From assembly GCF_004135405.1 (NCBI RefSeq), contig NZ_CP035491.1, positions 2,790,001 through 2,854,000 of the forward strand: DNA of 64,000 nt, written 5' to 3'. This DNA is from Agromyces protaetiae. GTDB taxonomy: Bacteria; Actinomycetota; Actinomycetes; Actinomycetales; Microbacteriaceae. This document shows positions 1 through 64,000 of this stretch, in pieces (positions within the stretch are counted from its first letter, which is position 1; every line of letters starts with the position of its first letter). The notes under the pieces were generated by a model. It saw only the letters and a program-made list of their open reading frames with translations, made no database searches and was not told the DNA's origin. The translations under genes and the position numbers were made by a program.

Positions 1-2
1 AG

Positions 3-47
3 CCCGGCGTGCAGTGGATGCCCGGGGTCGACGACCTCGAGGGCTGA
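3..47 (+). CDS. 3' end of an unidentified gene cut by the window edge
   Basis: An open frame enters from the left edge and ends at TGA 45-47, giving a C-terminus that reads PGVQWMPGVDDLEG. Only 14 residues are visible, so neither the family nor the function can be named. It would converge on the azlD-like gene ending at 115. The call rests on an open frame of plausible composition and on the lack of any other explanation for these bases; it could be chance. Confidence 0.35.
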   Translation, partial: PGVQWMPGVDDLEG

Positions 48-114
48 GCCCGGCGATACCGCCGCGACCGTCGCGCCCCGGTTTCAGAGCGGCGGATGCC
101 TCGGAGTCGCCGCG

Positions 115-420
115 TCAGGTAACCGCGCGAAGCCCGGCGGCGACCGCCGCGGCTACGATCACGACGACGACGAACGGCACCCGGAGCGCGAAGAGCGCGG
201 CCGCGACGATGACCGCGGGAAGTCGGGCATCGACGACGATCGCCTGCCCGTCGCCGAAGGTCTGGACTGCGATGAGGGCCGCGAGGAGCGCGACGGTGAG
301 CAGGTCGGCGATCCGCGCGGGTCGCTCGCGCTCGAGGAAGCTCGCCGGGACGGCGTAGCCCGCGAGCTTGAGCGCGAGCGTCGCGATGCTGGCGAGGATC
401 ACGATGTGCCAGATCGTCAC
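115..420 (-). CDS. AzlD-type branched-chain amino acid transport subunit
   Basis: A 101-residue, very hydrophobic protein with about four membrane segments, beginning MTIWHIVILASIATLALKL. Its size and position directly after an AzlC homologue fit the small AzlD subunit. AzlC and AzlD together export branched-chain amino acids or analogues across the inner membrane. The GTG start at 420-418 overlaps the azlC TGA at 419-417 in a GTGA arrangement, so the two are very probably translationally coupled. The frame is open further upstream, but that part is antisense-like, arginine-rich sequence, so the coupled GTG is preferred. The exact substrate cannot be read from the sequence. Confidence 0.85.
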   Translation of the reverse strand: MTIWHIVILASIATLALKLAGYAVPASFLERERPARIADLLTVALLAALIAVQTFGDGQAIVVDARLPAVIVAAALFALRVPFVVVVIVAAAVAAGLRAVT

Positions 421-1145
421 GTCGCTCGCCTCCGGCCGAGGAGGTCGAACCAGCCGACGACGACCGCGACGACTGCGGCGACGAGCACGGGCAGTCCGGG
501 CATCAGCACGGGGGTCGTGAAGGCGGCGACGACCGCGGCCGCCACCGCGACGGCGCCCGTCTGCAGGCTCTTGAGCCTCGGCCACAGGAGTCCGAGGAAT
601 GCCGCGGCGGCCGCGGCATCCAACCCCCACGCCCTCGTGTCGCCAATCGCGTCGCCGATGAGTGCGCCCGCGAGCGTCGTGAGGTTCCACCCGACGAAGA
701 TCGCGACGCCCGTGACCCAGAACCCGATGCGGGACTGCCGCTCGTCGGTCTGGGCGAGCGCGACGGCGGTCGATTCGTCGATCGTCACCCACGACGCCGC
801 AGCGCGTCGCCAGGGGCCGCCCGTGTCGACGACCGGCTTCATGCGCATGCCGTAGACGACGTTGCGCACCCCGAGGAGGCCCGCGGCGGCGATGGCGGAT
901 GCCCCGGCCGCGACGCCGCCCGAGGCGACCACGCCGACGAGGGCGAACTGGGAACCGCCCGTGAACATGATGAGGCTGAGGAAGCAGGTCTGCCAGACAT
1001 CCAGCCCCGCAGCGACCGAGAGGGCGCCGAACGACACGCCGTACACGGCGGTGGCGAGGCCGACGGCCAGGCCGTCGCGCGCGGCGGGTGACTTCAGCAG
1101 GCGTTTGCGCGAGGCATCCGCCCCGCCATCGGCTGCCTCGCCCAC
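417..1145 (-). CDS. AzlC family amino acid export permease
   Basis: A 242-residue membrane protein. The family core GVSFGALSVAAGLDVWQTC is followed by the FTGGSQFALVG stretch and LGVRNVVYGMRM, both typical of AzlC (branched-chain amino acid permease; LIV-E exporter class). It has several hydrophobic segments and no signal peptide. The GTG start at 1145 leaves 63 bases to the divergent methyltransferase gene, so this gap should carry both promoters. It is first in a two-gene operon with the AzlD subunit and overlaps it by 4 bases. The length is normal for the family. Confidence 0.9.
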   Translation of the reverse strand: MGEAADGGADASRKRLLKSPAARDGLAVGLATAVYGVSFGALSVAAGLDVWQTCFLSLIMFTGGSQFALVGVVASGGVAAGASAIAAAGLLGVRNVVYGMRMKPVVDTGGPWRRAAASWVTIDESTAVALAQTDERQSRIGFWVTGVAIFVGWNLTTLAGALIGDAIGDTRAWGLDAAAAAAFLGLLWPRLKSLQTGAVAVAAAVVAAFTTPVLMPGLPVLVAAVVAVVVGWFDLLGRRRAT

Positions 1146-1208
1146 GCATCCTCCACAACTCGCCGCCGGTGCGCGGATCGGCGCACGGGCTCACCCATAC
1201 TAGATCGG

Positions 1209-2066
1209 GTGACCCTGCCCGCCGCCGCGCCCGAACGCACCGCGATCGACCTCGATGCGAACCGCCCGCTCGACGACCGCTACTTCGAGCGAATGGCCGC
1301 GAGCCTCGGCGACAAGGCCCGCGTGATCCCGTTCCTCGTCGGCCGACGGGTGCTCGACGTCGGCGCGGGCGGCGGCGAACTCGCCCGCGCGATCGCGGGC
1401 GCCGGATTCGCGGTGACGGCGCTCGATGCGAGCGACGAGGCGATCCGCCGCCTCGAATCGCTCGGCGGCGTCGAGGTCGCACATGGCGACGCGTCGGACG
1501 CGGCTCGCGTCGTCGGAGGCGGCTTCGATGCGATCGTGTGCTCGGCGGTGCTGCACGAGGTCTACTCGTATGCGCCCGCGGACGCACGCCGGGGGACCCT
1601 CGACGCGGCGCTCGCGATGTTCGCAGACATGCTCGCTCCTGGCGGCCGGCTCGTGATCCGCGACGGCGTCATGCCCGACGACCCAAGTCGTCCCGCGAGC
1701 GTGCTTCTCCCGCCCGGGCGGATCGACGCCTTCGACCGGTACGCAGTGCTCACGCCGCACGCCGAGCTCGTGCTCGCACGCGACGGCGCCCGCGTCGAGG
1801 GCACACGCCACCAGATCGCCGAACTCCTCTTCACGCTGACGTGGGGCGCCGAGACCTTCGCGCGCGAAGCGCAGGAGCGCTATCAGCTCCACACACTCGC
1901 GGGCTACGCCGAGGCCGTCGCGCCGTACGGGCTGTCGCTCGTGCACGCCGACGCCGTCACGCAGCCGGGATACGTGGCGGCCCTCGCCGACATCGAGGTG
2001 CGCGACGAGCACGGCCGGCCGTGGTTCCCGCCGACCAACGGACTCTGGGTGTTCGAACACCCATGA
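1209..2066 (+). CDS. class I SAM-dependent methyltransferase
   Basis: 285 residues. A glycine-rich motif I, VLDVGAGGGELARAI (about residues 48-62), is followed by an acidic residue after the second strand (VTALDASDEA), which are the S-adenosylmethionine-binding signatures of Rossmann-fold methyltransferases. The substrate is unknown. The protein begins at GTG 1209. No Shine-Dalgarno is seen, but CATACT at 1196-1201 lies seven bases before the GTG, so a leaderless transcript is possible. Its stop overlaps the next gene in an ATGA arrangement, so the two are probably co-expressed. It is divergent from the AzlCD genes. Confidence 0.8.
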   Translation: MTLPAAAPERTAIDLDANRPLDDRYFERMAASLGDKARVIPFLVGRRVLDVGAGGGELARAIAGAGFAVTALDASDEAIRRLESLGGVEVAHGDASDAARVVGGGFDAIVCSAVLHEVYSYAPADARRGTLDAALAMFADMLAPGGRLVIRDGVMPDDPSRPASVLLPPGRIDAFDRYAVLTPHAELVLARDGARVEGTRHQIAELLFTLTWGAETFAREAQERYQLHTLAGYAEAVAPYGLSLVHADAVTQPGYVAALADIEVRDEHGRPWFPPTNGLWVFEHP

Positions 2067-2863
2067 TGGGCGTGACCCATGCGACGAGCGGCGCCGCGGC
2101 CTGGATCGCCGTGACGGGCGCCGCTCCCCTCATCACGACGGGCCTCGTGCCGCTCAGTCCCATCGGCGTGCTCGCCGGCACGGCCGTGTGCGCGGGCGCT
2201 GCGCTCCTGCCCGATGCCGACCATCGCAGCGCCACCATCGCGCACTCCGTGCCGATCCTCGGCAGACTCGCCGCGGGCGCTGTCGAGACCGTCTCGGGCG
2301 GGCACCGTCACGGCGCGCACTCGATCATCGCGGTCGTGCTCGCGACGGTCGCCGCGTGGGGTCTGTCGACCGCGATGGTGGAAGTCCCGCGGTACGGGCC
2401 GCTCGCGATCGGCGCCGGTCTCGGCACCGCCGCGCTCGTGTGCTTCGGCCTCAAAGCCCGCGACTTCGTCGAGTCGTGGGCGACGGCGTGGGTCGTCGGG
2501 CTGCTGCTCGGCTCGTTCATCGTCCTGGCAGCCCCCGACGAGGTGCGCTGGTTCCCGCTCGCGGTCGGCCTCGGCATGCTCATGCACCTCGCGGGCGATT
2601 TCTTGACGACCGGCGGGCTTCCGGGATTCCTGTGGCCGTGGGTGCCGCGCCCGCCGAAGCCGTGGCGGCGCATCCCAGTGCTGAACGACCTCTGGCGGCC
2701 GAACGGCTATGTCGCGCTCCCCCTGCTCGGCGACGCCGGGAGCCTGCGCGAGCACGTGCTCGGGTGGGCTCTCGGGCTCTACTGCCTCGCGGGAGCGATC
2801 GGCGAAGTCCTTCTCGCGCTCGGAGTCGATCCCGTCGAAGTGCTCACGGCATTCGCAGGCTGA
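2063..2863 (+). CDS. YdjM-type membrane-bound metal-dependent hydrolase
   Basis: 266 residues. Starts MMGVTHATSG and contains LLPDADHRSAT and the GGHRHGAHS histidine cluster, followed by several hydrophobic segments and a second conserved region, HLAGDFLTTGG. This is the pattern of the YdjM/DUF457 family of putative inner-membrane metal-dependent hydrolases; conserved His and Asp would bind metal. The physiological substrate is unknown for the family. The ATG at 2063 overlaps the upstream methyltransferase stop (ATGA); a second ATG follows at 2066. A strong hairpin lies directly downstream. Confidence 0.8.
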   Translation: MMGVTHATSGAAAWIAVTGAAPLITTGLVPLSPIGVLAGTAVCAGAALLPDADHRSATIAHSVPILGRLAAGAVETVSGGHRHGAHSIIAVVLATVAAWGLSTAMVEVPRYGPLAIGAGLGTAALVCFGLKARDFVESWATAWVVGLLLGSFIVLAAPDEVRWFPLAVGLGMLMHLAGDFLTTGGLPGFLWPWVPRPPKPWRRIPVLNDLWRPNGYVALPLLGDAGSLREHVLGWALGLYCLAGAIGEVLLALGVDPVEVLTAFAG

Positions 2864-2869
2864 AACGAT

Positions 2870-2900
2870 GAAGTCCCGGTGCATCTCGCACCGGGACTTC
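2870..2900. terminator. bidirectional intrinsic terminator
   Basis: A perfect 13-bp stem, GAAGTCCCGGTGC paired with GCACCGGGACTTC, closes a 5-base loop (ATCTC). It sits between the end of the membrane hydrolase (plus) and the 3' end of tRNA-Asn (minus), so it can terminate both. There is no long T-run, as is usual in high-GC actinobacteria. Confidence 0.8.
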
Positions 2901-2907
2901 TCTGTTG

Positions 2908-2980
2908 CTCCCCCACTTGGACTCGAACCAAGAACCTATCGGTTAACAGCCGATTGCTCTGCCAATTGAGCTATGGAGGA
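2908..2980 (-). tRNA. tRNA-Asn (anticodon GTT)
   Basis: 73 bases. Read on the minus strand, the acceptor arm TCCTCCA pairs with TGGGGGA, the anticodon loop reads CTGTTAA (anticodon GTT, positions about 2944-2946), and the T-loop is GGTTCGAGTCC. The discriminator base is G and no CCA is encoded, which is common in actinobacteria. A promoter candidate lies 20 bases upstream and a strong hairpin just downstream. Confidence 0.97.
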
Positions 2981-2999
2981 TCGCTTTGCAGCGACAGTT

Positions 3000-3029
3000 A
3001 CTCTAGCAAACCTCTCGCCCGAGTCCCAA
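3000..3029 (-). promoter_or_regulatory. candidate promoter of tRNA-Asn
   Basis: On the minus strand a TTGGGA (3029-3024) and a TAGAGT (3005-3000) are separated by 18 bases and lie about 20 bases ahead of the tRNA 5' end. The spacing and sequence fit a housekeeping sigma-70-class promoter. This is inference from the consensus only. Confidence 0.5.
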
Positions 3030-3076
3030 TCGAGGAACCCTCGCGTCGAGGCTGCGCAGAGCGCGCTGCATCCGAC

Positions 3077-3936
3077 TCACGTCGGGAGGCCCGTTTCGAC
3101 CTCGTCGATGATCGCATGCCCGCCGTCGAGCGCGCCCGCGAGCGCCTTGACGTACGGGTGCGACGGGTCGTCGAGCACCTCGTCGATCGTGCCGAGTGCG
3201 ACGAGCGCACCGCGATCGAATACCGCGATCCGGTCGGCGATACGCCGCAGGACAGGCAGGTCGTGCGTGATGACGATCGCCGAGAACGTGTGGCCGTCGC
3301 GCAGCTCGTGAAGGAGTTGCGCGACGGCGTCGCGCACCGTGAGGTCGATGCCCGCGGTCGGCTCGTCGGCGATCAGCAGCGTCGGCTTCAGCACGAGCGC
3401 GCGCGCGAGCGCGACCCGTTGGCGCTGCCCGTTGCTGAGCTCGTACGGAAAGAGGTCGAGCACCGTGAGCGGCAGCCGCACGGCGTCGACGAGGTTCGCC
3501 ACGCGCAGTCGCAGGGCCTTCACGTCGTACCGCGGATCGCGCTCGAGGATCGGCTCGGCGATGTTCTCGGCGACCGTGCGATCGGGCAGCAGGCGCACCG
3601 CGGCGTCTTGCGGCAGGTAGCCCACCCGGTACTGGTACTCCGCGAGCTTGCGGCGAGACATCCGTCGCAATTCCTGGCCGAGCACGCGCGCCGCGCCGCC
3701 CGTGATGACCGGCCGGACCTCTTCGTCGCGCGGATCGAGGAAGACGCCCGAGAGGATCTTCGCGAGCGTCGACTTGCCGCTGCCCGCACTGCCGAGCACC
3801 CCGAGCACCTCGCCCGGCGCGAGCCGCAGCGTGATGCCGTGGAGCGCCACGTGTGCGGGACTCGGCCCGCGCCCGGGATACTCAACCGAGAGGTCGCTCA
3901 GAACCACCGGATGACCGTGCGCGGGGGTGCGATGCA

Positions 3937-3937
<1 letters not shown>
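3077..3937 (-). CDS. ABC transporter ATP-binding protein (third nucleotide-binding domain of a peptide transporter)
   Basis: 286 residues and one ABC domain: Walker A GSAGSGKST (residues 49-57), signature LSNGQRQRVALARA (Asn in place of the second Gly of LSGGQ), Walker B LLIADEPTAGID and the H-loop VITHD. Its ATG (3937-3935) overlaps the TGA of the double ATPase by one base (TGATG), so it is the last gene of the peptide-transporter operon. Two ATPase domains already exist in the preceding gene, so this is an extra energising subunit, or one serving a related permease elsewhere. Its substrate cannot be read. Confidence 0.88.
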
Positions 3938-5645
<1,708 letters not shown>

Positions 5646-5649
<4 letters not shown>

Positions 5650-6724
5650 GGCTTGACCTCGATTCCGTGCTCGTCGAATGTTTCCCCGGGCTCGATCCCG
5701 TCGATGCCGCCAGGGCCCGCGGTGAGCGTCCCGCCGGGCACGACCGATGTCTCGGCGACCTGGCCTGCCGCCTGTGCGACCCGACGACGGCCCCGCAGAC
5801 GCGGGTCGGCGAGATCGTTGAGGCTCTCCCCACGAGCGTGATGCCGAGCACCGTGAATACGATCGCGAGGCCCGGGAAGAGCGCCGTCCACCAGATGCCG
5901 CTCGTGACATCCGACTGCGCCTTGAAGAGGTCGTAGCCCCACTCGGCCGCCGCCGTCGGTTCGATGCCGAAGCCGAGGAAGCCGAGGGCCGCGAGCGTCA
6001 GGATCGCCTCGGACGCGTTGAGCGTGATGATGAGCGGCAGGGTGCGAGTGGCGTTCCGGAACACGTGCTTGAACATGATGCGCCCGTTCGACGCGCCGAG
6101 CACCTTCGCCGACTCGACGTACGCCTCGGCCTTGATCCGCACGGTCTCCGCGCGGATGACGCGGAAGTACTGCGGGATGTAGACGACCGTGATCGAGCCC
6201 GCCGCGGCGAGCACGCCGCCCCACAGGTTCGACTGGCCCCCCGAGATGACGATCGACAGCACGATCGCGAGGAGGAGCGACGGGAACGCGTAGATCGCGT
6301 CGCACACGACGACGAGGATGCGGTCGAACCATCCGCCGAAATACCCGGCGAAGAGGCCGAGCAGCACGCCGATGAAGATGGAGAGCACGATCGCGATGAC
6401 GATCACGAGGATCGCCGTCTGCATACCCCACACGACTCGCGAGAGCACGTCGTACCCGCCGACGGTCGTGCCGAACCAGTGCTCGGCCGACGGCGGCTGC
6501 TGCGTGCCGAACGAGACCCCGTCGACCTTCCGCTGGGCGAACCCGTACGGGGCGATCCACGGCGCGAACGCCGCGAGCAAGAGGAACCCGCCGACCATGA
6601 CGAGGCCGGCGACGAGCATGCCGCGCTGGAGGCCGACGCTCTGACGGAGCTGGTGGACGACCGGCAGTCGGTCGACGAGACGGCGCTTGGGCGCCGCAGC
6701 GGATGTCACGGATGCCGCGGACAT
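5646..6724 (-). CDS. DppC-type peptide ABC permease, reading frame interrupted by one missing base
   Basis: A membrane permease of the DppC/OppC class. An N-terminal segment (GMLVAGLVMVGGFLLLAAFA) is followed by five more hydrophobic stretches and the inner-loop motif around EAYVESAKVLGASNGRIMFKH. The frame is intact to VLGITLVG, then shifts at a four-base C run (5828-5831, plus strand). One added base would restore GESLNDLADPRLRGRR, the usual DppC ending, and would reach the stop at 5646, which overlaps the next ATG (ATGA). Restored length is about 359 residues. Sequencing error is more likely than decay, since four other such deletions occur in this window. The start overlaps the DppB stop (TGATG). 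Confidence 0.85.
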
Positions 6725-7821: not shown

Positions 7822-7843
7822 GGGTTCCTCACGGTGCAGGGAA

Positions 7844-7875
7844 CGGGGGCGACCCGCGAAAGCGGATCGCCCCCG
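7844..7875 (-). terminator. intercistronic stem-loop between binding protein and permease
   Basis: CGGGGGCGA pairs with TCGCCCCCG over nine bases, and an inner CCGC/GCGG extension closes on a GAAA loop. It lies between the binding-protein stop (7905) and the DppB start (7821). Such hairpins in binding-protein operons act as partial terminators or 3'-end stabilisers; the function here is inferred. Confidence 0.6.
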
Positions 7876-7904
7876 TCAGCTGGGATCGATGCTAATCGAG
7901 CGAC

Positions 7905-44036: not shown

Positions 44037-44101
44037 CCGGCGGCGGATGTCTCGTGGCGGGCGGTTCTGGCGGGCCCCGGGCCGCCCGCCGGCATCCGCC
44101 G
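44037..44101. terminator. large bidirectional hairpin containing inverted GGATG/CATCC
   Basis: Nested stems lie between the convergent DrrB and hemW genes: CCGGCGG...GATG pairs with CATCCGCCGG on the outside, and GGCGGGCGG pairs with CCGCCCGCC inside. The outer arm contains a copy of the dispersed 10-mer (GGATGTCTCG at 44045). Confidence 0.65.
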
Positions 44102-44128: not shown

Positions 44129-45352
44129 GCCTTCGATGAGCTTGCGCACGACCGCGTCGGCGAGGAGCCGCCCTCGGCGCGTGAGCGTGAGCCGCCCGCC
44201 GAGGGCGGCCTTCGCGTCGACGAGCCCGTCGGCGATGAGCTCCGCGACGGCGTGCCGCCCGGCGGTGTGGAGCGACGGGATCGCGATACCCTCGCGGATG
44301 CGCGACTGCAGAAGCACGCGCTCGGTCTCTCGGGTCGGCTCGTCGAGAGTCTCGCGGCCGACGGCGGGCGAGACTCCCGCAGCAATGCGCTCGGCGTAGG
44401 CGGCCGGATGCTTCGCGTTCCACCAGCGCACCCCGCCGACGTGGCTGTGGGCACCCGGACCGACGCCCCACCAGTCGTCGCCGCGCCAGTACCCGAGGTT
44501 GTGCCGCGAGCGGTGCTCTTCGCCCCGCGCCCAGTTGCTCACCTCGTACCAGCCGTAGCCTGCGGCCTCGAATGCGTCGTCGGCGAGCTCGTACATGTCG
44601 GCCTCGAGGTCGTCGTCGGGGGTCGCGAGCTCGCCGCGGCGGATCTGCCGGGCGAGCTTCGTGCCGTCCTCGACGATGAGCGCGTACGCGCTCACGTGAT
44701 CGGGGTTCGCGGCGACGACCGCGTCGACGCTGCGCCGCCAATCGCCCAGTGACTCCCCCGGCGTGCCGTAGATGAGGTCGAGGCTCACCTCGAGGCCCGC
44801 TCGCCGGGCCCACTCGACGACGAGCGGCACGCGGTCGGGATCGTGCGTGCGGTCGAGCGCCGCGAGCACGTGCGGGACGGCCGACTGCATGCCGATCGAC
44901 ACCCGCGTGAATCCGCCTTCGGCGAGCCGCACGAGGTCGTCGGCGTCGACCGAGTCGGGGTTCGCCTCGGTCGTCACCTCGGCGCCGGGCGCGAGCCCGA
45001 ACTCGTCGCGGATCGCTCCGAGCATCGCGACGAGGTCGGCGGCCGGAAGCAGCGTCGGCGTGCCGCCGCCGAAGAAGATCGTGGATGCCTCGCGCTCGGG
45101 CAGCCCCGAGGCATCCATCACGCGGCGAGACATCCGGATCTCGCCGATCGCCTGATCGGCGTACTCGCTCTGCTTCGCGCCGCGCAACTCGCCTGACGTG
45201 TACGTGTTGAAATCGCAGTACCCGCACCGCACGCGGCAGAACGGCACGTGCACGTACACGCCGAAGGCGCGCTCGGCAGCGCCCGACACGACCGACGCGG
45301 GCAGCAGCCCGTCGGCGGGAGCCGGGTCGCCCAAGGGCAGCGGACCGCCCAC
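44126..45352 (-). CDS. hemW: radical SAM heme chaperone HemW (coproporphyrinogen III oxidase-like)
   Basis: 408 residues. Radical SAM enzyme with the CX3CX2C cluster motif FCRVRCGYCDFNTY near residue 45. GGGTPTLLPAADL and the family segments VSIGMQSAVPHVLAALDRTH and DLIYGTPGESLGDW follow, as does the C-terminal winged region. HemW proteins are heme chaperones rather than true oxidases. GTG 45352 starts two bases after the upstream stop. It normally lies between lepA and hrcA; here an exporter cassette separates it from hrcA. Confidence 0.94.
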   Translation of the reverse strand: MGGPLPLGDPAPADGLLPASVVSGAAERAFGVYVHVPFCRVRCGYCDFNTYTSGELRGAKQSEYADQAIGEIRMSRRVMDASGLPEREASTIFFGGGTPTLLPAADLVAMLGAIRDEFGLAPGAEVTTEANPDSVDADDLVRLAEGGFTRVSIGMQSAVPHVLAALDRTHDPDRVPLVVEWARRAGLEVSLDLIYGTPGESLGDWRRSVDAVVAANPDHVSAYALIVEDGTKLARQIRRGELATPDDDLEADMYELADDAFEAAGYGWYEVSNWARGEEHRSRHNLGYWRGDDWWGVGPGAHSHVGGVRWWNAKHPAAYAERIAAGVSPAVGRETLDEPTRETERVLLQSRIREGIAIPSLHTAGRHAVAELIADGLVDAKAALGGRLTLTRRGRLLADAVVRKLIEG

Positions 45353-49274: not shown

Positions 49275-50303
49275 TCAGCGCGCCCGACCGCGATCGGCGA
49301 TGAGGGCGACGAGCCGTTCGAGCGCGAACACGGGGTCGCGCTCCGCGCCCTTCACCGCGGCGTCGGTCGCCGCGAGCGCCTCGACGACGCGCGCGAGCCC
49401 CTCGTCGTCCCAGCCGACGAGGTCGCGTCGGGCTCGATCGATCTGCCACGGCGCGAGCCCGAGTTGACCGGCGAGTTGGCCCGACGAGCCGCGGGTGCCG
49501 AAGACCTTCGCCATGCTGCGGATCTTCATCGCGAACGCACCGACGATCGGCACGGGGTCGGCGCCCGACTCGAGCGCCTGTCGGAGCGCGACGAGCGCGT
49601 CGCCGCGACGGCCCGCGATCGCCTGGTCGGCGACGACGAACGCCGTCGTCTCGACGCGGCCGCCGTAGTACTTCGCGACGGTCGGCTCGTCGATGTCGCC
49701 GGGAGCGTCGGCGATGAGCTGTCGGCAGGCGGCGGCGAGTTCACCCAGGTCGTCGGAGAACGCGCCGACGAGTGCGCGGAGCGCGGAGGGGGCGATTCGG
49801 CGGCCTGCCGCTCGGAACTCGGTCGCCGCGAAGTCTTGCTTGGCGCTGTCGTTCTTGAGTTCGGCGCACACGATCTCGATGGCGTCGCCGCCGCCCGCGC
49901 GGATCGCGTCGAGGAGCTTCTTGCCGCGCATGCCGCCGCGGTGGCGAAGCACGACGGTCGTCTGCTCGGCGGTCGACTCGAGGTAGTCGAGGGCGTCGAG
50001 AAGGAAGTCGTCGCTCGCCTTCTCGACGGCGGTCACGCGGATGAATCGGGGTTCGCCGAACAGCGAGGGACTCGCGAGCGTGAGCAGTTCGCCCCGACGG
50101 TAGCCGTCGGCTTCGAGATCGCTCACCTCGAGTGCGGGGTCTTCGGAGCGCAGGAAGTCGCGCAGCATCGTCACGGCACGGTCGGCGAGGACGTCTTCGG
50201 GGCCCGACACGAGCACGACGGGCGCTGGACGCACCTCGTTCCACGAGAGCTGCGGGATGGCCGCCTTGCCTTTCGCCGCCGTCGCTCCGCGTGCTGCCGC
50301 CAC
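49275..50303 (-). CDS. holA: DNA polymerase III subunit delta (HolA)
   Basis: 342 residues. Clamp-loader wrench subunit. It has the early VVLVSGPEDVLADRAVTMLRD, then FGEPRFIRVTAVEKA, LRHRGGMRGKKLLDAI, and the helical C-terminus with VFGTRGSSGQLAGQLGLAPW. ATG 50303 gives a short Ala/Lys-rich leader before the fold. The comEC frame overlaps its first 133 bases, an unusual amount. The order comEA-comEC-holA is normal for actinobacteria. Confidence 0.94.
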   Translation of the reverse strand: MAAARGATAAKGKAAIPQLSWNEVRPAPVVLVSGPEDVLADRAVTMLRDFLRSEDPALEVSDLEADGYRRGELLTLASPSLFGEPRFIRVTAVEKASDDFLLDALDYLESTAEQTTVVLRHRGGMRGKKLLDAIRAGGGDAIEIVCAELKNDSAKQDFAATEFRAAGRRIAPSALRALVGAFSDDLGELAAACRQLIADAPGDIDEPTVAKYYGGRVETTAFVVADQAIAGRRGDALVALRQALESGADPVPIVGAFAMKIRSMAKVFGTRGSSGQLAGQLGLAPWQIDRARRDLVGWDDEGLARVVEALAATDAAVKGAERDPVFALERLVALIADRGRAR

Positions 50304-52759
50304 CCTGTCTCCGTTCGTCCGCCGCCGGCGTCAAGTCTACGGGCGGCCGCCGACGCGGACCCGAGGGACGCTTCTCCTCCCGCAGCGACGCCGGACGCGT
50401 CGCCGCGTTCGGTCCACAGCCGCCATACGCCCTCGTCGCGGGTCAGCAGCGCCGTGCCGTCGAGATCGCTGCGGATCGCCGTCGTGCCGGCCGCCGCGAG
50501 CATCCCGAGTGCTTTCGACGTCGGGTGCCCGTAGCCGTTGTCGGCGCCGACTCCCACGAGGCCGACGTCGGCGGCGAGCCGTGCGTAGAGGTCGGGGTAC
50601 TGATCGGCGGAGCCGTGGTGGGCGACCTTCACGAGATCCACCCGGCCCGGCCGCTCGCGCGCGAGCATGCTCCGTTGGGCGTCTTCGCCGAGGTCGCCGA
50701 GGAAGAGTCCCGTCCACTCCCCCGCGTGCACCTCGAGGACGACGCTCGCGGGGTTCCCCGGCTCGGCGCCGGGCTCCGGCCAGAGCACACGCCATGCGGC
50801 ATCCCCGAGCGTTCCGTGCGCACCCGTCGCGACTTCGTGCACGACGGCTCCCGACTCGACCAGCCTGTCGAGCGGCCTGCTCGACCGCCCGCCGTCGAGC
50901 GGTCCGTGGAGCACCGTGCCCACCATCCCTGCGACCGCGGCGACGCCGCCGACGTGGTCGGCGTCCCAGTGGGTGAGGACGAGCAGGTCGATCCGATCGA
51001 TCCCGAGGAGGCCGAGGCACCGGGCGAGCGCCGCCGGATCGGGCCCGGTATCGATGAGCGCCACGGCGTCGGCATCGCGCACGAGCACGGCGTCGCCCTG
51101 CCCGATGTCGCACTGGGCGACATCCCAGTCATCGGGCATCGCCGCGCGCACGAGCGCGGGCGCGCCGACGGACGCACCGAGTGGTCCTGCGATGGCGACG
51201 ATGAGCATGATGCTCGCCGCGAGCACGCCGACGAACGGTCGGCGGCGTGCGAACAGGAGCCACACGCCCGTGCCCGTCACCGCCGCGAGGAGCAGTGCGC
51301 CGATCGCTCCCGGCACCCACCCCGCCGTCGCGCCGGGGAGTCCCGCGGTGCCGTGCGCGACGAGCGCGATCCACGAGGCCGGCAGCCACGCGATCTGCAG
51401 GGCGGCGAACCCGACCGACGGCAGCACGGGCAGGACGAGGCATCCGACGAGGCCGACCATCGTACCGACGGGAGCTGCGGGCGCCGCCAGCAGATTCGCG
51501 ACGACGCCGTACACGGCGACGCCGGGGTTCAGCATGATGAGCACGGGCTGACACGCGAGTTGGGCTGCGATCGGCACCGCGAGCACGAGCGCGAGCGATC
51601 CCGGCATGAACCGCGCGAGCTTCGCGCCGAGCGGACCGGCGAGGAGCAGGAGCCCCGCCGTCGCGCACACCGAGAGCGCGAACCCGTAGTCGCGTGCGAG
51701 CCACGGATCGCCGACGAGCAGCGCGATGATCGCGATCGAGAGCGCCGCGATCCCACCGCCCTGCCGCCCCGACGCCGTCGCGACGAGCACGACTACCCCC
51801 ATCGCCGCCGCGCGCACGACGCTCGCCTCGGGTGTCACGAGCACGACGAAGGCTGCGAGGGCGAGGAGTGCGATCGCGACGCGCGCGAACCGCGGGAGGC
51901 CGCAGGCGGCCGCGAGCGCGAAGGCGAGCGCCGTCACGATCGCGCAGTTCGCCCCCGACACAGCCGTCAGGTGGCTGAGCGAGGAGGCTTTCATGGATGC
52001 GTCGAGCTCGGCGCCGACCGCACTCGTGTCGCCGATCGCCAGGCCCGGGACGAGTGCTCCGCCGTCGCCGCCGAGGCGTTCTGCGGCATCCGCGAACCCT
52101 GCGCGCAAGGTCGCAGCCCACGCGAGCCACGGCGGCGGCGGCGAAACCGCAAGCGGATCGACCGGTCGCAGTCGGAACGCGGCGGAATCGGCCGACGCGC
52201 CCGCGCCCACGCTCGCCCGAAACGCCGCGTGCGCCCCGAACGCCAGCCCCTCGGATGCCTCGGCCGTCACTTGCACCGGCACACTCCCGCCGTCTCTCCC
52301 ATCGATCGAGACCACGAGAGCCTCGAACCGCACGCGCGATTCGCCCGCGAGCCACGGCATCGACGGACTCACGGCGACCTTGCGCGGAGCGCTCGTGAGT
52401 TTGACGACGACGGCGACCGTGCGGTGCTCGGCCGCCGCCGACGCGAGTGTGGATGCTCCACGACGATCGAGTCCGACCGCGGTCGAGTGCGCGACCGAGG
52501 CGCCCGCCGCCGACGCGACGAGCAGTGTCGCGGCGACGGCTGCGACCACTGCGACCCGTGCCGCCGGTCCTCGCCGTCGGGCGACGAGGACCGCCCGTAC
52601 GACGACCGCGCACATCACCGCCGCGGCCGCCCACAGCGCGACCGCCGGCACCCACGCGCCGATTCCCGCGTCGGGTGCGCCGACCGCGAGCCATCCGGCC
52701 GCCCATGCGACCGCCGCCGGAAGCAGCAGCCGGAGATCGCGCCCTCGCGCGGTGCTCAC
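50171..52759 (-). CDS. comEC: ComEC/Rec2 DNA uptake channel protein
   Basis: 862 residues as read. Inner-membrane channel for single-stranded DNA in transformation. N-terminal membrane segments and an OB-like region are followed by the competence domain (SHLTAVSGANCAIVTALAF) with many membrane helices. The C-terminal metallo-beta-lactamase part has VLTHWDADHVGG and KVAHHGSADQYPDL. The GTG start overlaps the comEA stop (GTGA). After WRLWTERG the frame continues for about 80 low-complexity residues into holA; a stop in another frame at 50337 would be the natural end if one base is missing. Confidence in the C-terminus is low. Confidence 0.9.
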   Translation of the reverse strand: MSTARGRDLRLLLPAAVAWAAGWLAVGAPDAGIGAWVPAVALWAAAAVMCAVVVRAVLVARRRGPAARVAVVAAVAATLLVASAAGASVAHSTAVGLDRRGASTLASAAAEHRTVAVVVKLTSAPRKVAVSPSMPWLAGESRVRFEALVVSIDGRDGGSVPVQVTAEASEGLAFGAHAAFRASVGAGASADSAAFRLRPVDPLAVSPPPPWLAWAATLRAGFADAAERLGGDGGALVPGLAIGDTSAVGAELDASMKASSLSHLTAVSGANCAIVTALAFALAAACGLPRFARVAIALLALAAFVVLVTPEASVVRAAAMGVVVLVATASGRQGGGIAALSIAIIALLVGDPWLARDYGFALSVCATAGLLLLAGPLGAKLARFMPGSLALVLAVPIAAQLACQPVLIMLNPGVAVYGVVANLLAAPAAPVGTMVGLVGCLVLPVLPSVGFAALQIAWLPASWIALVAHGTAGLPGATAGWVPGAIGALLLAAVTGTGVWLLFARRRPFVGVLAASIMLIVAIAGPLGASVGAPALVRAAMPDDWDVAQCDIGQGDAVLVRDADAVALIDTGPDPAALARCLGLLGIDRIDLLVLTHWDADHVGGVAAVAGMVGTVLHGPLDGGRSSRPLDRLVESGAVVHEVATGAHGTLGDAAWRVLWPEPGAEPGNPASVVLEVHAGEWTGLFLGDLGEDAQRSMLARERPGRVDLVKVAHHGSADQYPDLYARLAADVGLVGVGADNGYGHPTSKALGMLAAAGTTAIRSDLDGTALLTRDEGVWRLWTERGDASGVAAGGEASLGSASAAARRLDAGGGRTETGWRQHAERRRRKARRPSRSSRGTRCVQRPSCSCRAPKTSSPTVP

Positions 52760-53445
52760 AGCGCCACCAGATCGACAAGGCCCGCGAAGGTCGCGTCGCC
52801 GATGCCCGCGACCTCGCGGAGCTGGTCGACGCTCGTGAATCCGCCGTTCGCCTCCCGCCAGTCGAGGATGCGCTGCGCCAACGCGGGCCCGATGCGCGGG
52901 AGCGTGTCGAGCGCCGCGACGTCGGCCGTGTTGAGGTGCACGAGTCCGTCCGCCGCACCCGCGCCACCACCCCTGCCCGCCGCACCCGCGGCCTGCGGCG
53001 GCGGCAGCTCGCCGACGCGAGGCACGACGAGTTGCTCGCCGTCGGCGACGGGCCGTGCGAGGTTCACGCCGGCCGGGTCGGCGTCGGCCGAGAACCCTCC
53101 CGCCGCGGCGACCGCGTCGACGACGCGTGCACCCTCGCCGAGCTCGACGAGTCCGGGCTCCGCAACGGCTCCGAGCACGTGCACGAGGACGGGGTTCGAG
53201 AGCGCGACCCCCACCTCGGCGGCTCGACCTTGCGGGGCGTCCGCGGCGCCGCCCCCGTCGGCGAGCGGCGCCGCTCCGCCGATCGCCCCGCGATCGCCCG
53301 CGACCGACGCCGACAGCACCGCCGACACGGCCACCGCGACGACGAAGCAGACGATCGCCGCTCCGACCGCGATCCGCACCCGCGCAGGCGCGCGCTTCGC
53401 GGACGGATCGAGCGAAGCGAGCGGGTCGGGAGCGTCGGCGGGCAT
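52756..53445 (-). CDS. comEA: ComEA family DNA-binding competence protein
   Basis: 229 residues. One N-terminal membrane anchor (IAVGAAIVCFVVAVAVSAVL), an SLBB-like domain (VLVHVLGAVAEPGLVELGEG, then GVNLARPVADGEQLVVPR), a Gly/Ala linker and a C-terminal helix-hairpin-helix pair (LNTADVAALDTLPRIGPALA, then FTSVDQLREVAGIG). It binds incoming double-stranded DNA outside the membrane. The standard actinobacterial architecture. Overlaps comEC by 4 bases. Confidence 0.95.
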   Translation of the reverse strand: MPADAPDPLASLDPSAKRAPARVRIAVGAAIVCFVVAVAVSAVLSASVAGDRGAIGGAAPLADGGGAADAPQGRAAEVGVALSNPVLVHVLGAVAEPGLVELGEGARVVDAVAAAGGFSADADPAGVNLARPVADGEQLVVPRVGELPPPQAAGAAGRGGGAGAADGLVHLNTADVAALDTLPRIGPALAQRILDWREANGGFTSVDQLREVAGIGDATFAGLVDLVAL

Positions 53446-56133: not shown

Positions 56134-56270
56134 TCGCCCATTCTCGCAACGGCGCAAGCTGCGGCGCCACGCCCTGTGCATCGAAATGTACGTAAGGTCT
56201 ACGGATGTCCCCAGGTCACCGCTGCCCACAATCTGGGGTGATGCAGCCGTCCGTCGACCAGGAGTACGCC

Positions 56271-56894: not shown

Positions 56895-56899
56895 CTCGC

Positions 56900-56941
56900 G
56901 CTGAGGCGTTCGGCGTCGAAATCGACGCCGAGCGCCTCAGC
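56900..56941. terminator. bidirectional terminator between lipoprotein gene and leuS
   Basis: GCTGAGGCG plus CGGCGTCG pair with CGACGCCG plus CGCCTCAGC, broken by one two-base internal mismatch, around an AAAT loop. The stem includes the leuS stop codon (56937-56939). Confidence 0.8.
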
Positions 56942-59564: not shown

Positions 59565-59610
59565 CGATCAAGGGGCGCGCGAGTAGGGGGCGGCGCGCCC
59601 GCCTTCCAGC

Positions 59611-61041
59611 CTATTGGATCGGGCTGTGCTCTCGCCCGACGAGCACCTCGACGAGCGCGCGGGCCTTGATCTTCGTCTCCTCGATCTCCTCGGAGGCGTC
59701 CGAGAGGGCCGTGATGCCGCCGCCCGTGCCGATCGACGCGCCGTCGGGCGTCAGCACGATCGAGCGGATGACCATCGCGAGGTCGGCGCTCCCGTCGACG
59801 CCGAGACATCCGAATGCCCCTGAATACACGCCCCGGGGGCCCTGCTCGAGCCCGTGCAGGATCGTCATCGCACTGATCTTCGGCGCACCCGTCATCGACC
59901 CGGCCGGGAACGACGCCGCGACGGCGTCGACCGCCGTGAGCCCCGGTTCGAGCCGCGCCGCGACGGTCGAGACGAGCTGGTGCACTTGCGGGTACGCCTC
60001 GGTCTCGAGGAGCACGGGCACGTGCACGCTGCCCAGCTCGGCGATGCGCGACAGGTCGTTGCGCATGAGGTCGACGATCATCAGGTTCTCGGCGCGCTCC
60101 TTCTCGCTCTCGAGGAGTTCGAGCCGCAGCGCCTCGTCGCTCGCCGGGTCGGCGCCGCGCGGGCGGGTGCCCTTCATGGGCTTCGTGAAGACGCGCCCGT
60201 CGGGCTCGACGAGGAGGAACTGCTCGGGCGACGCCGACAGCAGTGCGACGTCGCCGAACCGCAGGAATCCGCCGTGGTGCGTCGGGCTCAGGCGGCGGAG
60301 CCGCAGGTAGGCGTCGACGGGGTCGGGCCGGACGTCGACGTCGACCCGGTTGGTGAGGCAGAGCTGGTATGCATCGCCGCGGCGGATCGCCGCCTGGCAG
60401 TCGGCGATCATGCGGGCATAGGTCGCATCGTCATGCCGGCGCGTCACGCGCGGAGCGCCGGGGGCGGATGTCCCGGACGCATCGGGATCTGCGGATGCCC
60501 CGGGGGCGTCGGATGTCTCGGGGGCGTCGGATGTCTCGACGAGCCCGTGCAGCGCCCGCGCCGTGTCGTCGGCCCACGCGTCGCCGTCGTCGTCGCCGAG
60601 CCATTCGAGTCGCAGGGCTCGCGAAGCGTGGTCGAACACGACCGTGCGGTCGGCGAAGAAGAACGCCGCGTCGGGGGTCGCCGCGATCGACACGGGCACG
60701 CCGTTGCGCGCGGCCCCGAACTCGTACCCGAACCATCCGATCCACCCGAGCGCCGAGCGCTCGCCTCCGTCCACAGGAGTCGTGTCGGCCTGCTCCGCCG
60801 CCAGACCCGCTCGCAGTGCGTCGAGCACCTCGTCGGCCGAGTCGGCCGGCGCCGCGGGGTCGAGATGCGAGACGACGATCTGCGCGTCGTCGTGGGCGAC
60901 CGCGATGACGCTGCGGCCGTCCGAGGCATCCGCCCCGCCGTCGAGCCACGCGACGACGGGCGCCGCCGCGGCCAAGGCGAGGAACACCGCCTCAGGGTCG
61001 CGCCACTCGTCGAGCTCGCGCACGCGGATCGGTCGGGGCAT
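59611..61041 (-). CDS. pabB: aminodeoxychorismate synthase component I (PabB)
   Basis: 476 residues. Makes 4-amino-4-deoxychorismate for folate. The chorismate-binding fold shows the PabB-specific lysine motif in PMKGTRPRG (anthranilate synthase has Ala there), VDLMRNDLSRIAELG and the FPAGSMTGAPK loop. Between the N-terminal domain and the core is a repetitive Ser/Asp/Ala insert (about residues 170-195) built from copies of the GGATGYCTCG-type 10-mer. No pabA or pabC is next to it in the window. Confidence 0.92.
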   Translation of the reverse strand: MPRPIRVRELDEWRDPEAVFLALAAAAPVVAWLDGGADASDGRSVIAVAHDDAQIVVSHLDPAAPADSADEVLDALRAGLAAEQADTTPVDGGERSALGWIGWFGYEFGAARNGVPVSIAATPDAAFFFADRTVVFDHASRALRLEWLGDDDGDAWADDTARALHGLVETSDAPETSDAPGASADPDASGTSAPGAPRVTRRHDDATYARMIADCQAAIRRGDAYQLCLTNRVDVDVRPDPVDAYLRLRRLSPTHHGGFLRFGDVALLSASPEQFLLVEPDGRVFTKPMKGTRPRGADPASDEALRLELLESEKERAENLMIVDLMRNDLSRIAELGSVHVPVLLETEAYPQVHQLVSTVAARLEPGLTAVDAVAASFPAGSMTGAPKISAMTILHGLEQGPRGVYSGAFGCLGVDGSADLAMVIRSIVLTPDGASIGTGGGITALSDASEEIEETKIKARALVEVLVGREHSPIQ

Positions 61042-61085
61042 CCCACCAGCGTAGAGCCGCGCGCGGCGCAGGGCCGCGACGCGGG

Positions 61086-62783
61086 TCAGGCGCGCGCGAC
61101 CGACGCGACCGGGTCGAGCTCGACGACCCGATCGATCTCGGCGGGTGTCGTCGTCGTGTGCATGATGAGGAGCACCGATCGGTCGCCCGCCGCCGCGAGC
61201 AGGTCGTCGAGGAGACGCTCGGCGGTCGCGGGGTCGACGTTCGCGGTCGGCTCGTCGAGCACGACCACGGGGAAGTCGGCGAGCATGGCGCGCGCGAGCG
61301 CGAGGCGCTGGGCCTGCCCGCCCGAGACGAGCGTTCCGCGCTCCCCGACCGCGGCGTCGAGTCCGCCGCGTTCGCGCACCCAGTCGGCGAGCCCGACGCG
61401 ATCGAGCGCATCGAAGAGGTCGTCGTCGGTCGCGGTGTCGCGAGCGAACAGGAGGTTCTGGCGCACGCTCTCATCGAAGAGCCACGGCCGCTGCTCGACG
61501 AGTCCGACGACCCGGCGCACGTCGCCCGGATCGAGGTCACGCGCCTCCACGCCGTCGAGTCGGTAGCTCCCCTCGTAGTCGAGGAAGCGCACGAGGACGT
61601 GCGCGAGCGTCGTCTTGCCGGCGCCCGAGGGGCCGCGGAGGAGGACGCGCTCCCCCGGCTCGATCCGGAGCGAAACGCCGTCGACCGCGGCAGGTCGGGT
61701 CGCATCGTCGAGGGTCGGCCACGATGCGCGGATGTCTCGCAGTTCGACGGTCGGCGCAGCGGCGCCGGAAGACAGCTCACGCGGAAGCGCGGGCGCCGTC
61801 GCGACGCCCGCCGGCGGCGTGGCGGGCACCGCCATCGCGACCCGCGCCGCACTCACGCGCGCAGCCCGCCACGCCGACACGCCGACGGGGATCGCGGCGG
61901 CGACCTCGGCGATCGCGAGCGGCACGAGGCACAGCACGGCGAACGCGGGCCCGTCGAGCCGGCCCGACGCGAGTTCGGGGAGGCCGCCGCCGATGCTCGC
62001 GAGCACGGCGAGTCCGCCGAGCGCCGTCATGCACGCGGCACCAGCGCCGACCGCGGCGGATTGCACGCGCGTCGCGCGCGCGAGCCGCCCCCCGAGCTCG
62101 ACGATGCGCGCACGGCTCGCCGCTGCGCCGTCGAAGGCGACGAGCACGTCGAGCGACTGCACATGCTCGACGACGGCCGCCTGCAGTTCGCCGCGGAGCG
62201 GCGCGATGAGCCGGATGCCCCGGGCCGTCGCCGCACGTTCGGCGAGGATCGCCGCGCCGACCCCGACGACGAGCACGAGCGCGAGCAGGCCCGCCGACGC
62301 GGGCGCGAGGAACGCGATGCCGACGACCGCGGCGACGAGCACGAAGAGCGCGCTCGCCACGGGTTGCACGGCGCGCAGCATGACGAACTGGAGGTCGTCG
62401 ACGTCCCGGGTGAATCGGGCGAGCAAGTCGCCGCGGCGGAGCATCCCGAGTCCGTCGGGCGCCGACGGCAGCAGCCGCTCATAGAGTCCAGTGCGAATCG
62501 ACCCGAGCTGACGGAACGCCGCGTCGTGTCCCGTGAGCCGCTCGAGGTATCGGAACACCGCCCGCCCGAGCGCGAACGCACGCACACCGACGACCGCGAC
62601 GGAAAGGTACAGCACGGGCGGCTGCTCGGCCGCTCGCGTGATGAGCCACGCGGAGCACGCGAGGAGCGCCACCGCCGACCCCGCCGACAGGAATCCGAGG
62701 AGCACGACGGGCAGGAGCCGCCGGGGCGGCGGGATCGCGTCTCGCAGGACCCGCGCGGTCGCGTCGGCACGTTCAGCGGACAT
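61086..62783 (-). CDS. cydC: thiol reductant ABC exporter subunit CydC
   Basis: 565 residues. An ABC exporter half: six membrane segments in the first 300 residues, then Walker A GPSGAGKTTLAHV, signature LVSGGQAQRLALARAM and Walker B VVVLDEPTANVD. With CydD it exports glutathione/cysteine-type thiols and is needed to assemble cytochrome bd. It begins 11 bases before the end of cydD, so the two are coupled. An end-of-operon position; no cydAB is in view. Confidence 0.93.
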   Translation of the reverse strand: MSAERADATARVLRDAIPPPRRLLPVVLLGFLSAGSAVALLACSAWLITRAAEQPPVLYLSVAVVGVRAFALGRAVFRYLERLTGHDAAFRQLGSIRTGLYERLLPSAPDGLGMLRRGDLLARFTRDVDDLQFVMLRAVQPVASALFVLVAAVVGIAFLAPASAGLLALVLVVGVGAAILAERAATARGIRLIAPLRGELQAAVVEHVQSLDVLVAFDGAAASRARIVELGGRLARATRVQSAAVGAGAACMTALGGLAVLASIGGGLPELASGRLDGPAFAVLCLVPLAIAEVAAAIPVGVSAWRAARVSAARVAMAVPATPPAGVATAPALPRELSSGAAAPTVELRDIRASWPTLDDATRPAAVDGVSLRIEPGERVLLRGPSGAGKTTLAHVLVRFLDYEGSYRLDGVEARDLDPGDVRRVVGLVEQRPWLFDESVRQNLLFARDTATDDDLFDALDRVGLADWVRERGGLDAAVGERGTLVSGGQAQRLALARAMLADFPVVVLDEPTANVDPATAERLLDDLLAAAGDRSVLLIMHTTTTPAEIDRVVELDPVASVARA

Positions 62784-64000
62784 CCGCGAGCACCCCCAGC
62801 GCGACGACCCGGTCGGCGGCTGCCGCGAGGCTCGGCCGATGGGTCACGACGAGCACCGCACGGCCGTCGCCCGCGAGTTCGCAGAACGTGTGCGCGAGCG
62901 CCTCCTCGCGGTCGTGGTCGAGCGCCGACGACGGCTCGTCGACGACGAGCAGCGCGAGGTCGCGAGCGAGCAGACGATGGATGGCCCGCGCCACCGCGAT
63001 CCGCTGCGCCTGGCCGCCCGACACGCCCTCGCCGCCGGCGCCGAGCACCGACGCGGGATCGACGTCGACCCCGGCCAGCGCGAGCGCACGATCGAGGATC
63101 GCAGGCGAGGCATCCGGATCGCCCATCGTGACGTTCGACGCGACGGTCCCCGCGACGAGCGACGAGCGCTGCGGCGCCCACGCGACGGCCGGAAGTCCCG
63201 GGCCCGACGCTCCCCCGACGCTGATCTCACCCTCGTGGTCGACGAACCCCAGGATCGCGGCGACGAGGCTCGACTTGCCGACGCCGCTCGGTCCGACGAC
63301 GGCGACGACCTCGCCCGGCGCGACGGCGAGGTCGAGGCCCTCGACGACGACGCGATCGTCGCGGCGGACGACGAGGTCGCGCACGACGAGGCCGCGGCCG
63401 TCGGAGTCGGTCGGCTCCGAGACATCCGCGACGTTCCCTGTGCGTGCCGCCGCCTCGACGAGGTCGAGCGCGTCGACCGAGGCCGTGACGCCGCCTGCGG
63501 CGCTGTGGAACGCCGCACCGACGTTTCGAAGCGGCAGGAAGATCTCGGGCGCGAGCACGAGCACGAACAGGCCGACCGCGAGGGCGAGCGATCCGTCGAC
63601 GAGCCGGAACCCGATCGACACCGCGACGAGCGCGACCGACAGGCTCGCCGCGAGCTCGAGCGCGAACCCCGAGAGGAACGTCACCCGCAGGACGCGCATC
63701 GTGCGCACCCGGTATTCGTCGGTCACGGCGGCGATGCGCGCGGACTGTCGCTTCGCGCGACCGAAGACGAGGAGCGTCGACAGTCCGCCGAGCACTTCGA
63801 GGAATCCCCGCGACAGCGTCTCGAGCGCATCCCATTGCCGCCGCTGCACCGCTTGCGTCGCGAGCCCGATGAGGATCATGAAGACCGGGATGATCGGCAG
63901 CACGAGGACGAACGTGAGTCCCGAGAGCCAGTCGCCCCACCACGCCGCTGCGACGAGCAAAGGGGTCGCGATCGCCGTGAGCACCAACTGCGGCAGGTAA
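62773..64000 (-). CDS. cydD: thiol reductant ABC exporter subunit CydD (5' part beyond the window)
   Basis: The last 409 or so residues of CydD. The frame is open to the right edge. Visible are a membrane half (WLSGLTFVLVLPIIPVFMIL and later segments), the inner loop LETLSRGFLEVLGGLSTLLV, and an ABC domain with Walker A GPSGVGKSSLVA, signature VSGGQAQRIAVARA and Walker B LLVVDEPSSALD. It pairs with the overlapping cydC. The cydAB oxidase genes presumably lie to the right. Confidence 0.92.
   Translation of the reverse strand, partial: YLPQLVLTAIATPLLVAAAWWGDWLSGLTFVLVLPIIPVFMILIGLATQAVQRRQWDALETLSRGFLEVLGGLSTLLVFGRAKRQSARIAAVTDEYRVRTMRVLRVTFLSGFALELAASLSVALVAVSIGFRLVDGSLALAVGLFVLVLAPEIFLPLRNVGAAFHSAAGGVTASVDALDLVEAAARTGNVADVSEPTDSDGRGLVVRDLVVRRDDRVVVEGLDLAVAPGEVVAVVGPSGVGKSSLVAAILGFVDHEGEISVGGASGPGLPAVAWAPQRSSLVAGTVASNVTMGDPDASPAILDRALALAGVDVDPASVLGAGGEGVSGGQAQRIAVARAIHRLLARDLALLVVDEPSSALDHDREEALAHTFCELAGDGRAVLVVTHRPSLAAAADRVVALGVLADVR

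Follow-up and report, generated by a model that had tools for sequence, protein, structure and literature searches.

The 64-kb window of Agromyces DNA carries comEC and comEA, as the initial annotation had reported, both recognizable by their domain content, together with exact copies of the 10-mer GGATGYCTCG in both orientations. The features are as follows.

50171..52759, minus strand: comEC, candidate part of an uptake machine (Competence and Lactamase_B domains), holding the copies at 51436 (minus) and 52253 (plus)
52756..53445, minus strand: comEA, candidate part of an uptake machine (SLBB and HHH_3 domains)
44037..44101, plus strand: GC-rich hairpin with convergent genes on either side; an exact copy (44045) in one arm and an imperfect one in the other
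45083..45135, no strand assigned: convergent inverted pair (45083 plus, 45107 minus) and a third copy (45126 minus), within one gene
94 (94..103), 10221, 10284, 12445, 13226, 14733, 17121, 17130, 19725, 19742, 25480, 27997, 32339, 35018, 36563, 38330, 41374, 42990, 44045, 45083, 47981, 52253, 60511, 60529, 61730, plus strand: start positions of 25 copies of GGATGYCTCG
1110 (1110..1119), 3654, 10899, 13397, 15770, 17951, 23893, 30276, 43167, 45107, 45126, 45787, 51436, 53466, 57423, 57519, 59802, 60922, 63106, 63418, minus strand: start positions of 20 copies of GGATGYCTCG

All 41 copies listed in the initial annotation, which had counted "at least 41", were recovered with exact position and orientation (41/41), and four overlooked ones (3654 minus, 35018 plus, 51436 minus, and 57423 minus) bring the window total to 45 (25 plus and 20 minus). 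The variants GGATGCCTCG and GGATGTCTCG account for 23 and 22 copies, respectively. The initial estimate was that chance would give fewer than one copy; 100 dinucleotide shuffles of the window gave a mean of 0.96 and a maximum of 4. By the gene calls of this analysis, 9 of the 45 copies are wholly intergenic and one is partially so, roughly the quarter first stated. The hairpin at 44037..44101 had been described as a terminator with the word in inverted arms; the hairpin is confirmed, but the copy is exact in a single arm, the imperfect one in the second arm reading GGATGCCGG on its own strand. At the 45126 site the full word occurs in 0/20 aligned Agromyces relatives, GGATG[ACT]CNCG is kept in 15/20, and GGATGTCGCG is found in five of the six examples listed.

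Over the 3.68-Mb chromosome GGATGYCTCG occurs 2306 times (1180 + 1126), while the reversed control word, which controls imperfectly for codon bias, occurs 4 times (2 + 2). A 464-kb sample of the same genome, composed of the window and 20 stretches of 20 kb, contains 322 copies. The Markov comparison proposed in the initial annotation was made with models trained with the word copies masked, and orders 1–7 expect 5.9 to 10.3 copies (both words jointly); unmasked models, in which the copies are built in, expect 64, 137, and 291 at orders 5, 6, and 7. The over-representation of this short word, present on both strands, is real and larger than first claimed. In the sample, CGGATGCCTCG was found 163 times and CGGATGTCTCG 91 times, and single-base neighbours are scarce (0–5 each for changes within GGATG and 0–8 at the last two bases). 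This genome tolerates some variation at the third base past GGATG, with T, C, and G at 163, 48, and 36 (CGGATGC-C-n-CG, 464 kb).

Most copies in the sample are genic (257–258 of 322; 61 are intergenic). Two frames, one per strand, hold 114 and 101 of the 258 genic copies and encode D-A/V-S and E-A/T-S. The commonest sense frame is G GAT GYC TCG, with which the use of GAT for Asp is consistent. This concentration of 215/258 copies in two of six frames is what would be expected of a coding by-product, in which favoured peptides (ADAS, PEAS) are written in preferred codons. However, synonymous shuffling yields 11.5 copies against the 258 observed, the density is doubled between genes (1.29 per kb vs. 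0.62 in genes, with 10.2% of the sample non-coding), and the congener G008 prefers CCG where the present genome has CCT. The initial annotation had named a strong restriction to one reading frame as the mark of a by-product; here two frames on opposite strands are favoured, and since this preference is accompanied by an intergenic excess, the word is not a coding by-product. This explanation was rejected on the shuffles, the intergenic excess, and the contrast with G008, and we attach a negligible likelihood to it.

The density reaches 2.75 per kb between convergent genes of the sample, and close opposite-strand pairs are convergent in 15 cases and divergent in 3 (p = 0.0075), with 9 of the 15 convergent pairs lying within genes. 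An intergenic excess was seen also in G008 and G094. It was not clear in G164 (0.73 vs. 0.75 per kb; 3 divergent to 1 convergent close pairs) or in G116 (1.25 vs. 1.18 per kb; 11 divergent to 7 convergent), and in genomes other than the present one the pairs were too few or divergent. The replication origin was not located and every possible split of the chromosome was therefore scanned for strand skew. The copies showed no polarity over the chromosome (53% at the best split, p = 0.87), and strand use did not differ between regions of the sample (p = 0.90). At least 40 kb of this genome, a foreign-looking stretch carrying an HsdR-type (type I restriction) gene, contains no copies where about 25 are expected; in this single case the word is scarce in apparently newly acquired DNA.

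These distributions bear on two alternatives. As a dispersed, over-represented, and non-palindromic word, GGATGYCTCG resembles Escherichia coli Chi and could be a recombination hotspot read by a helicase-nuclease. In contrast to Chi, it lacks strand polarity, has dialects between genera, and occurs without RecC, which was found in 0/30 family genomes by a search in which the E. coli control was positive. Chi with RecBCD was rejected on the absence of RecC from 30/30 genomes; a RecBCD/Chi signal is thereby weakened, and a Chi-like function is very improbable. A binding site for a nucleoid, segregation, or regulatory protein would agree with the density and the mixed orientation, but neither polarity nor regional heterogeneity was detected, the copies are mostly genic, their positions are poorly conserved among congeners, unlike regulatory sites, and the dialect shifts at genus level. 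We regard such a site as distinctly unlikely.

The core CGGATGCC is enriched at least 5-fold over the reversed control in 44/80 Microbacteriaceae genomes and in 0/139 genomes from other families of the same order. Sequence comparison shows GGATGYCTCG to be one of several clade-specific dialects that a family-wide element has formed around a common core. As third base after GGATG the present genome has T, most Agromyces sampled have G, and others have C (T vs. G, present genome vs. G008: Fisher p = 2e-18). Within GGATGnCnCG the present genome uses CCT/TCT, the Agromyces genomes G008 and G005 use CCG and ACG/CCG, respectively, G111 uses ACC/CCC, and G122, G060, and G164 use CCG. GGAGGCGCGG is enriched in two genera, in 6/6 g57 genomes (7–9-fold) and 6/6 g53 genomes (2–7-fold); in G094 its intergenic density is 2.8-fold that in genes. 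No clear word was detected in G075, G104, and G092 (120 kb each), and all nine surveyed family genomes of at most 1.8 Mb stayed below 5-fold for the core. GGATG flank profiles from the G102 and G109 contigs (5.7 kb each) were left out as too small. The word sites turn over fast: in alignments with relatives the full word is kept at 23/278 positions and its frame at 58/278.

Dialects could also reflect different enzymes if the word were a methyltransferase or restriction-modification recognition signal, protected or favoured genome-wide. The word is short and non-palindromic with a family-wide core, GGATG matches the FokI restriction site, and GGATCC is raised in G221 (CGGATCC 153 vs. about 52 expected) and G093 (178 vs. 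about 76). Restriction sites are usually avoided in genomes, and the enrichment runs against this tendency; moreover, such a signal would not be expected to be 10–11 bases long and to occur throughout intergenic and convergent sites. D12-class methyltransferases exceeded the cut-off in 7/30 family genomes and are absent from the present genome, which has the highest full-word count among the genomes counted. D12 was thus discarded as the cognate enzyme, and the methylation reading, only partly excluded on this one enzyme class, is in our view distinctly unlikely.

Full-word counts among Agromyces genomes range from 115 to 2306 and dialect strength is uneven, as might be seen if an ancestral uptake sequence persisted as a relic in Agromyces that no longer transform. 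The T dialect of the present genome, however, differs from that of most sampled congeners and has sharp copies, both of which point to a drive that is recent or still under way, and com and Tad-like genes are present. A relic is therefore considered unlikely.

The genome encodes ComEC, ComEA, and two Tad-like clusters. Competence genes do not discriminate, being near-universal in the family: ComEC was found in 79/80 family genomes, with and without core enrichment, and T2SSE-type ATPases in 80/80, and neither therefore follows motif strength. ComEC was consequently dropped as a discriminator of motif-bearing genomes. A full type IV pilus operon lies beside rpoC in the present genome. As a general receptor carrier the type IV pilus was rejected, with a PilB-type ATPase in only 4/29 Agromyces and weaker matches only in the motif-rich genomes G004, G116, G164, and G119. 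Rhodoluna lacicola and Aurantimicrobium photophilum, both Microbacteriaceae, are reported to be naturally transformable (PMC11577799), and for transformation Micrococcus luteus depends on two tad clusters and on machinery linked to comEA/comEC (PMC4322843). The two proven transformers of the family are small-genome members, although the core reached 5-fold in none of the nine small genomes surveyed.

The likeness to Neisseria and Pasteurellaceae uptake sequences put forward in the initial annotation has gained support as the best-supported reading, function itself being a matter of interpretation. It is strengthened by the dialects on a shared core, the scarce neighbours, the intergenic excess, the copy-free foreign-looking stretch, the lack of polarity, and the fast turnover. 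Weighing against it are the near-universal ComEC and T2SSE-type ATPases, the rarity of a PilB-type pilus in Agromyces, the genomes G075, G104, and G092, the small genomes below 5-fold, the distribution in G164 and G116, the genic position of 9 of the 15 convergent pairs, and the variable third base. By analogy, CGGATGYCTCG probably serves this Agromyces as a DNA uptake sequence, or self-DNA watermark, which biased natural transformation maintains; it belongs to a dialect set spanning much of the Microbacteriaceae. We infer that Agromyces actively transforms, that its uptake is sequence-biased, and that a receptor mediates this bias. As in M. luteus, the competence machine would consist of Tad/Flp-type pili with ComEA and ComEC; its DNA receptor at the cell surface would favour DNA with the 10–11-mer, and word-bearing fragments would be taken up more frequently. 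Homologous recombination would then swap resident alleles for motif-bearing ones, and copies born by point mutation would accumulate (molecular drive) up to a limit set by gene function. Drift in receptor preference may slowly rewrite the genome and give rise to dialects.

In the Neisseriaceae DUS, some dialects are reported to reach about 2000–3600 copies per genome, share a short core, and track phylogeny, inverted pairs are tied to terminators, and intragenic copies are common (PMC3630211). The Agromyces word is alike in copy number range, short shared core, dialects, and frequent intragenic copies and, within the present genome, in inverted pairs. In contrast, the sequences are unrelated, the core being CTG in DUS and CGGATG in Agromyces; CGGATGYCTCG has no CTG on that strand, and in the Microbacteriaceae even the core seems to vary (GGAGGCGCGG). 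DUS are read by ComP, a type IV minor pilin (PMC12616744), whereas most Agromyces lack a PilB-type pilus. The Pasteurellaceae USS evolves by point mutation, is scarce in recently acquired segments and constrained coding sequence, and is explained by uptake bias and recombination (PMC7811141). The present word would be comparable in point-mutation origin and in this explanation, and it is scarce in the one apparently acquired stretch. It differs in sequence, USS hosts are Gram-negative, and the uptake bias is measured for USS and inferred in Agromyces. The likeness proposed is one of mode of working. M. luteus, of the same order, likewise has ComEA, ComEC, and two tad or Tad-like clusters; no uptake sequence is apparent in the available part of its competence paper (PMC4322843), and CGGATGCC reaches 5-fold in 0/139 genomes from other families of the order.

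A literature search found uptake sequences described for Neisseriaceae and Pasteurellaceae and none for Actinobacteria or Microbacteriaceae. We give roughly even chances to the wider proposal of an Actinomycetota uptake-sequence system across most Microbacteriaceae, in which the core itself would vary (GGATGCCGCG, GGATGYCTCG, GGATGMCCCG, GGATGCGCG, GGAGGCGCGG, and perhaps GGATCC), the receptor would be unrelated to ComP and probably located on Tad pili or ComEA, and gene exchange between genera would be hindered by the dialects. If the uptake reading is true, a Gram-positive phylum would have evolved DNA self-recognition independently, and in bacteria of soil and plants rather than of mucosal surfaces. 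Whether uptake sequences owe their evolution to molecular drive, to receptor constraint, or to sex with kin, a long-standing question, would become testable on a third, species-rich dialect set, the receptor would be findable through dialect-receptor covariation, and a practical route to transforming Microbacteriaceae would be at hand.

At the level of single loci, G is the leading third base after GGATG in 15 of the 22 named Agromyces loci and T or C in 7. Fourteen of the 15 G-leading loci sit in two groups of the ComEC tree, one with strong and one with moderate support (L098 is absent from this tree). The strongest words at Leifsonia, Amnibacterium, and Galbitalea loci are mostly conserved or repeated local sequence and were left out of the dialect comparison.

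All 41 positions listed for GGATGYCTCG in the initial annotation proved to be exact copies, and the window contains 45 in total (0.96 after shuffling). The Agromyces protaetiae genome (G000; 3,683,091 bases in a single contig, with the window at 2,790,001–2,854,000) holds 1180 forward and 1126 reverse copies, and the reversed control word occurs 2 + 2 times. In a 464-kb sample consisting of the window and 20 evenly placed stretches, 322 copies were found versus 5.9–10.3 expected from Markov models of order 1–7 trained with the copies masked; the excess over composition claimed earlier withstood this check. Unmasked models of order 5, 6 and 7, in which the word itself is contained, predicted 64, 137 and 291 copies in 464 kb. 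The extended consensus is CGGATGYCTCG. Within this sample, one-base changes within GGATG gave 0–5 copies apiece and those at the final two bases 0–8, while in the CCT form the T position is softer (T 163 versus C 48, G 36 and A 15), as are the first C (variants 11–18) and the C preceding T (2–14).

According to our own gene calls, the 322 copies comprise 257 genic, 61 intergenic and 4 partial ones, corresponding to 1.29 per kb in intergenic DNA versus 0.62 in genes. Genic copies are divided between sense (129) and antisense (127) orientations; a single sense frame (D-A/V-S) holds 114 and a single antisense frame (E-A/T-S) 101 of 258, and synonymous shuffling predicted 11.5 genic copies in all versus 258. 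For gaps of up to 1500 bases, density was 2.75 per kb between convergent, 1.29 between codirectional and 0.96 between divergent genes. Copy spacing is approximately random except for an excess under 200 bases. Neighbouring copies less than 100 bases apart were direct (24), convergent (15; 9 in genes and 6 intergenic) or divergent (3), and the spacing was exactly 18 bases in 9 of the 24 direct pairs. When every possible origin was scanned for a two-halves split, the best split in strand use was 53% (permutation p = 0.87), and no regional differences in strand use were detected (p = 0.90).

Relatives recovered with ComEC place the genome in Agromyces, to which each of the first 21 loci listed belongs. 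The full word is enriched in 36 of 36 Agromyces genomes (115 to 1575 copies), ranges from 0 to 2306 copies among 299 Microbacteriaceae genomes, and occurs 2–30 times in 23 genomes of other families. Of 80 family genomes, 44 had a ratio of the core CGGATGCC to its reversed control of 5 or more, and 55 had one of 3 or more. Among 139 genomes from other families of the order, none reached 5 and two reached 3 (maximum 3.76).

Preferred letters differ among genomes. Within GGATGnCnCG, A. protaetiae prefers CCT (205) and TCT (117) over CCC (59) and CCG (51), and the letters of two other Agromyces are CCG 37 and CCT 9 (G008) and ACG 19 and CCG 19 (G005). G111 has ACC 9, CCC 6 and CCG 5; CCG is preferred in G122 (21), G060 (15) and G164 (31), and G116 has relaxed letters. 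ACGGATGC is favoured in Gryllotalpicola (G112) and GGATGCG at two Gulosibacter loci. GGAGGCGCGG occurs 49 times in 120 kb of G094 versus 2.7 expected (one-base neighbours, 0–13), and is enriched in 6/6, 6/6 and 1/5 (at 2.8-fold) genomes of the single-genus groups g57, g53 and g77, respectively. CGGATCC is raised in G221 (153 versus about 52 expected), instead of the CGGATGCC abundant in its genus-mates G164, G271, G313 and G351, and also in G093 (178 versus about 76); GCGGATC is raised in G110 (52 versus about 9). These raised words are possibly further dialects. The palindrome GGATCC is approximately 2–3 fold up at loci where GGATGCC is not raised (L155–L158 of G221, L182–L186 of G093). A clear word was absent from 120 kb each of G075, G104 and G092. 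At the third base after GGATG, where counts per locus are small, G leads at 15 of 22 named Agromyces loci, and T or C leads or ties at 7. In the ComEC tree, 14 of the 15 G-leading loci belong to one or other of two groups, supported at 99/99 and 86/96. Of the four outgroups, Herbiconiux and Galbitalea clearly have G. The Galbitalea locus L108 also carries a longer repeat around a CAACTCCTGAGTTTCC-like sequence, 11 times in 22 kb, which is unrelated to the word.

When the window was aligned with 21 Agromyces loci, 18 of its 45 sites were covered, giving 278 site-by-relative cells. The full word is kept in 23 cells and GGATG[ACT]CNCG in 58, indicating that copies arise and vanish in place. Such turnover is expected for uptake sequences, as described in PMC7811141, and is unlike conserved regulatory sites. 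A binding site of a regulatory or nucleoid protein matches poorly with the turnover and with the dialects. In sum, the word represents a genomic signal that is sharp, specific to the family, actively maintained and divided into dialects. Its reading as a candidate DNA uptake sequence is the one that accounts for all of these features. No published description of the word was found in the collection of papers searched.

As initially annotated, comEC and comEA are both present in the window. ComEC was found in 79 and T2SSE in all 80 of 80 family genomes. A. protaetiae has two Tad-like clusters (near 2,185–2,190 kb and 3,529–3,533 kb) with matches to T2SSE ATPases and to TadE or DUF4244, other members being named from position. 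It also has a further operon:
Chromosome 1,487,860–1,500,591 (L009, L133): full-looking type IV pilus operon, directly after rpoC
This operon encodes PilB, PilT-, PilC-, PilD- and PilM/N/O-like proteins and a prepilin with an N-methylation motif; the Pfam check covers PilB and the prepilin. A PilB-type ATPase was found in 4 of 29 Agromyces. Transformation of Micrococcus luteus, a member of the same order, requires two tad clusters according to PMC4322843, and natural transformation is reported for two Microbacteriaceae in PMC11577799. None of nine family genomes of at most 1.8 Mb reached a 5-fold core ratio, and therefore members of the family may transform without carrying an enriched word. 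As regards rival explanations, RecC was found in 0 of 30 genomes. The methyltransferase search, which covered the D12 class, gave none in A. protaetiae and matches over the cut-off in 7 of 30 genomes.

One part of the chromosome lacks the word, with zero copies versus about 25 expected (P about 1e-11) up to the limit of the sequence examined, the far end lying beyond:
Chromosome 2,943,945–2,984,000 (L017, L135): motif-free stretch with HsdR-type restriction, sigma-like and helicase-like genes
GC drops to 0.62–0.67 across most of this stretch past about 2,949 kb. Its opening few kb hold ordinary-looking genes, and the foreign part is therefore likely shorter than the stretch itself.
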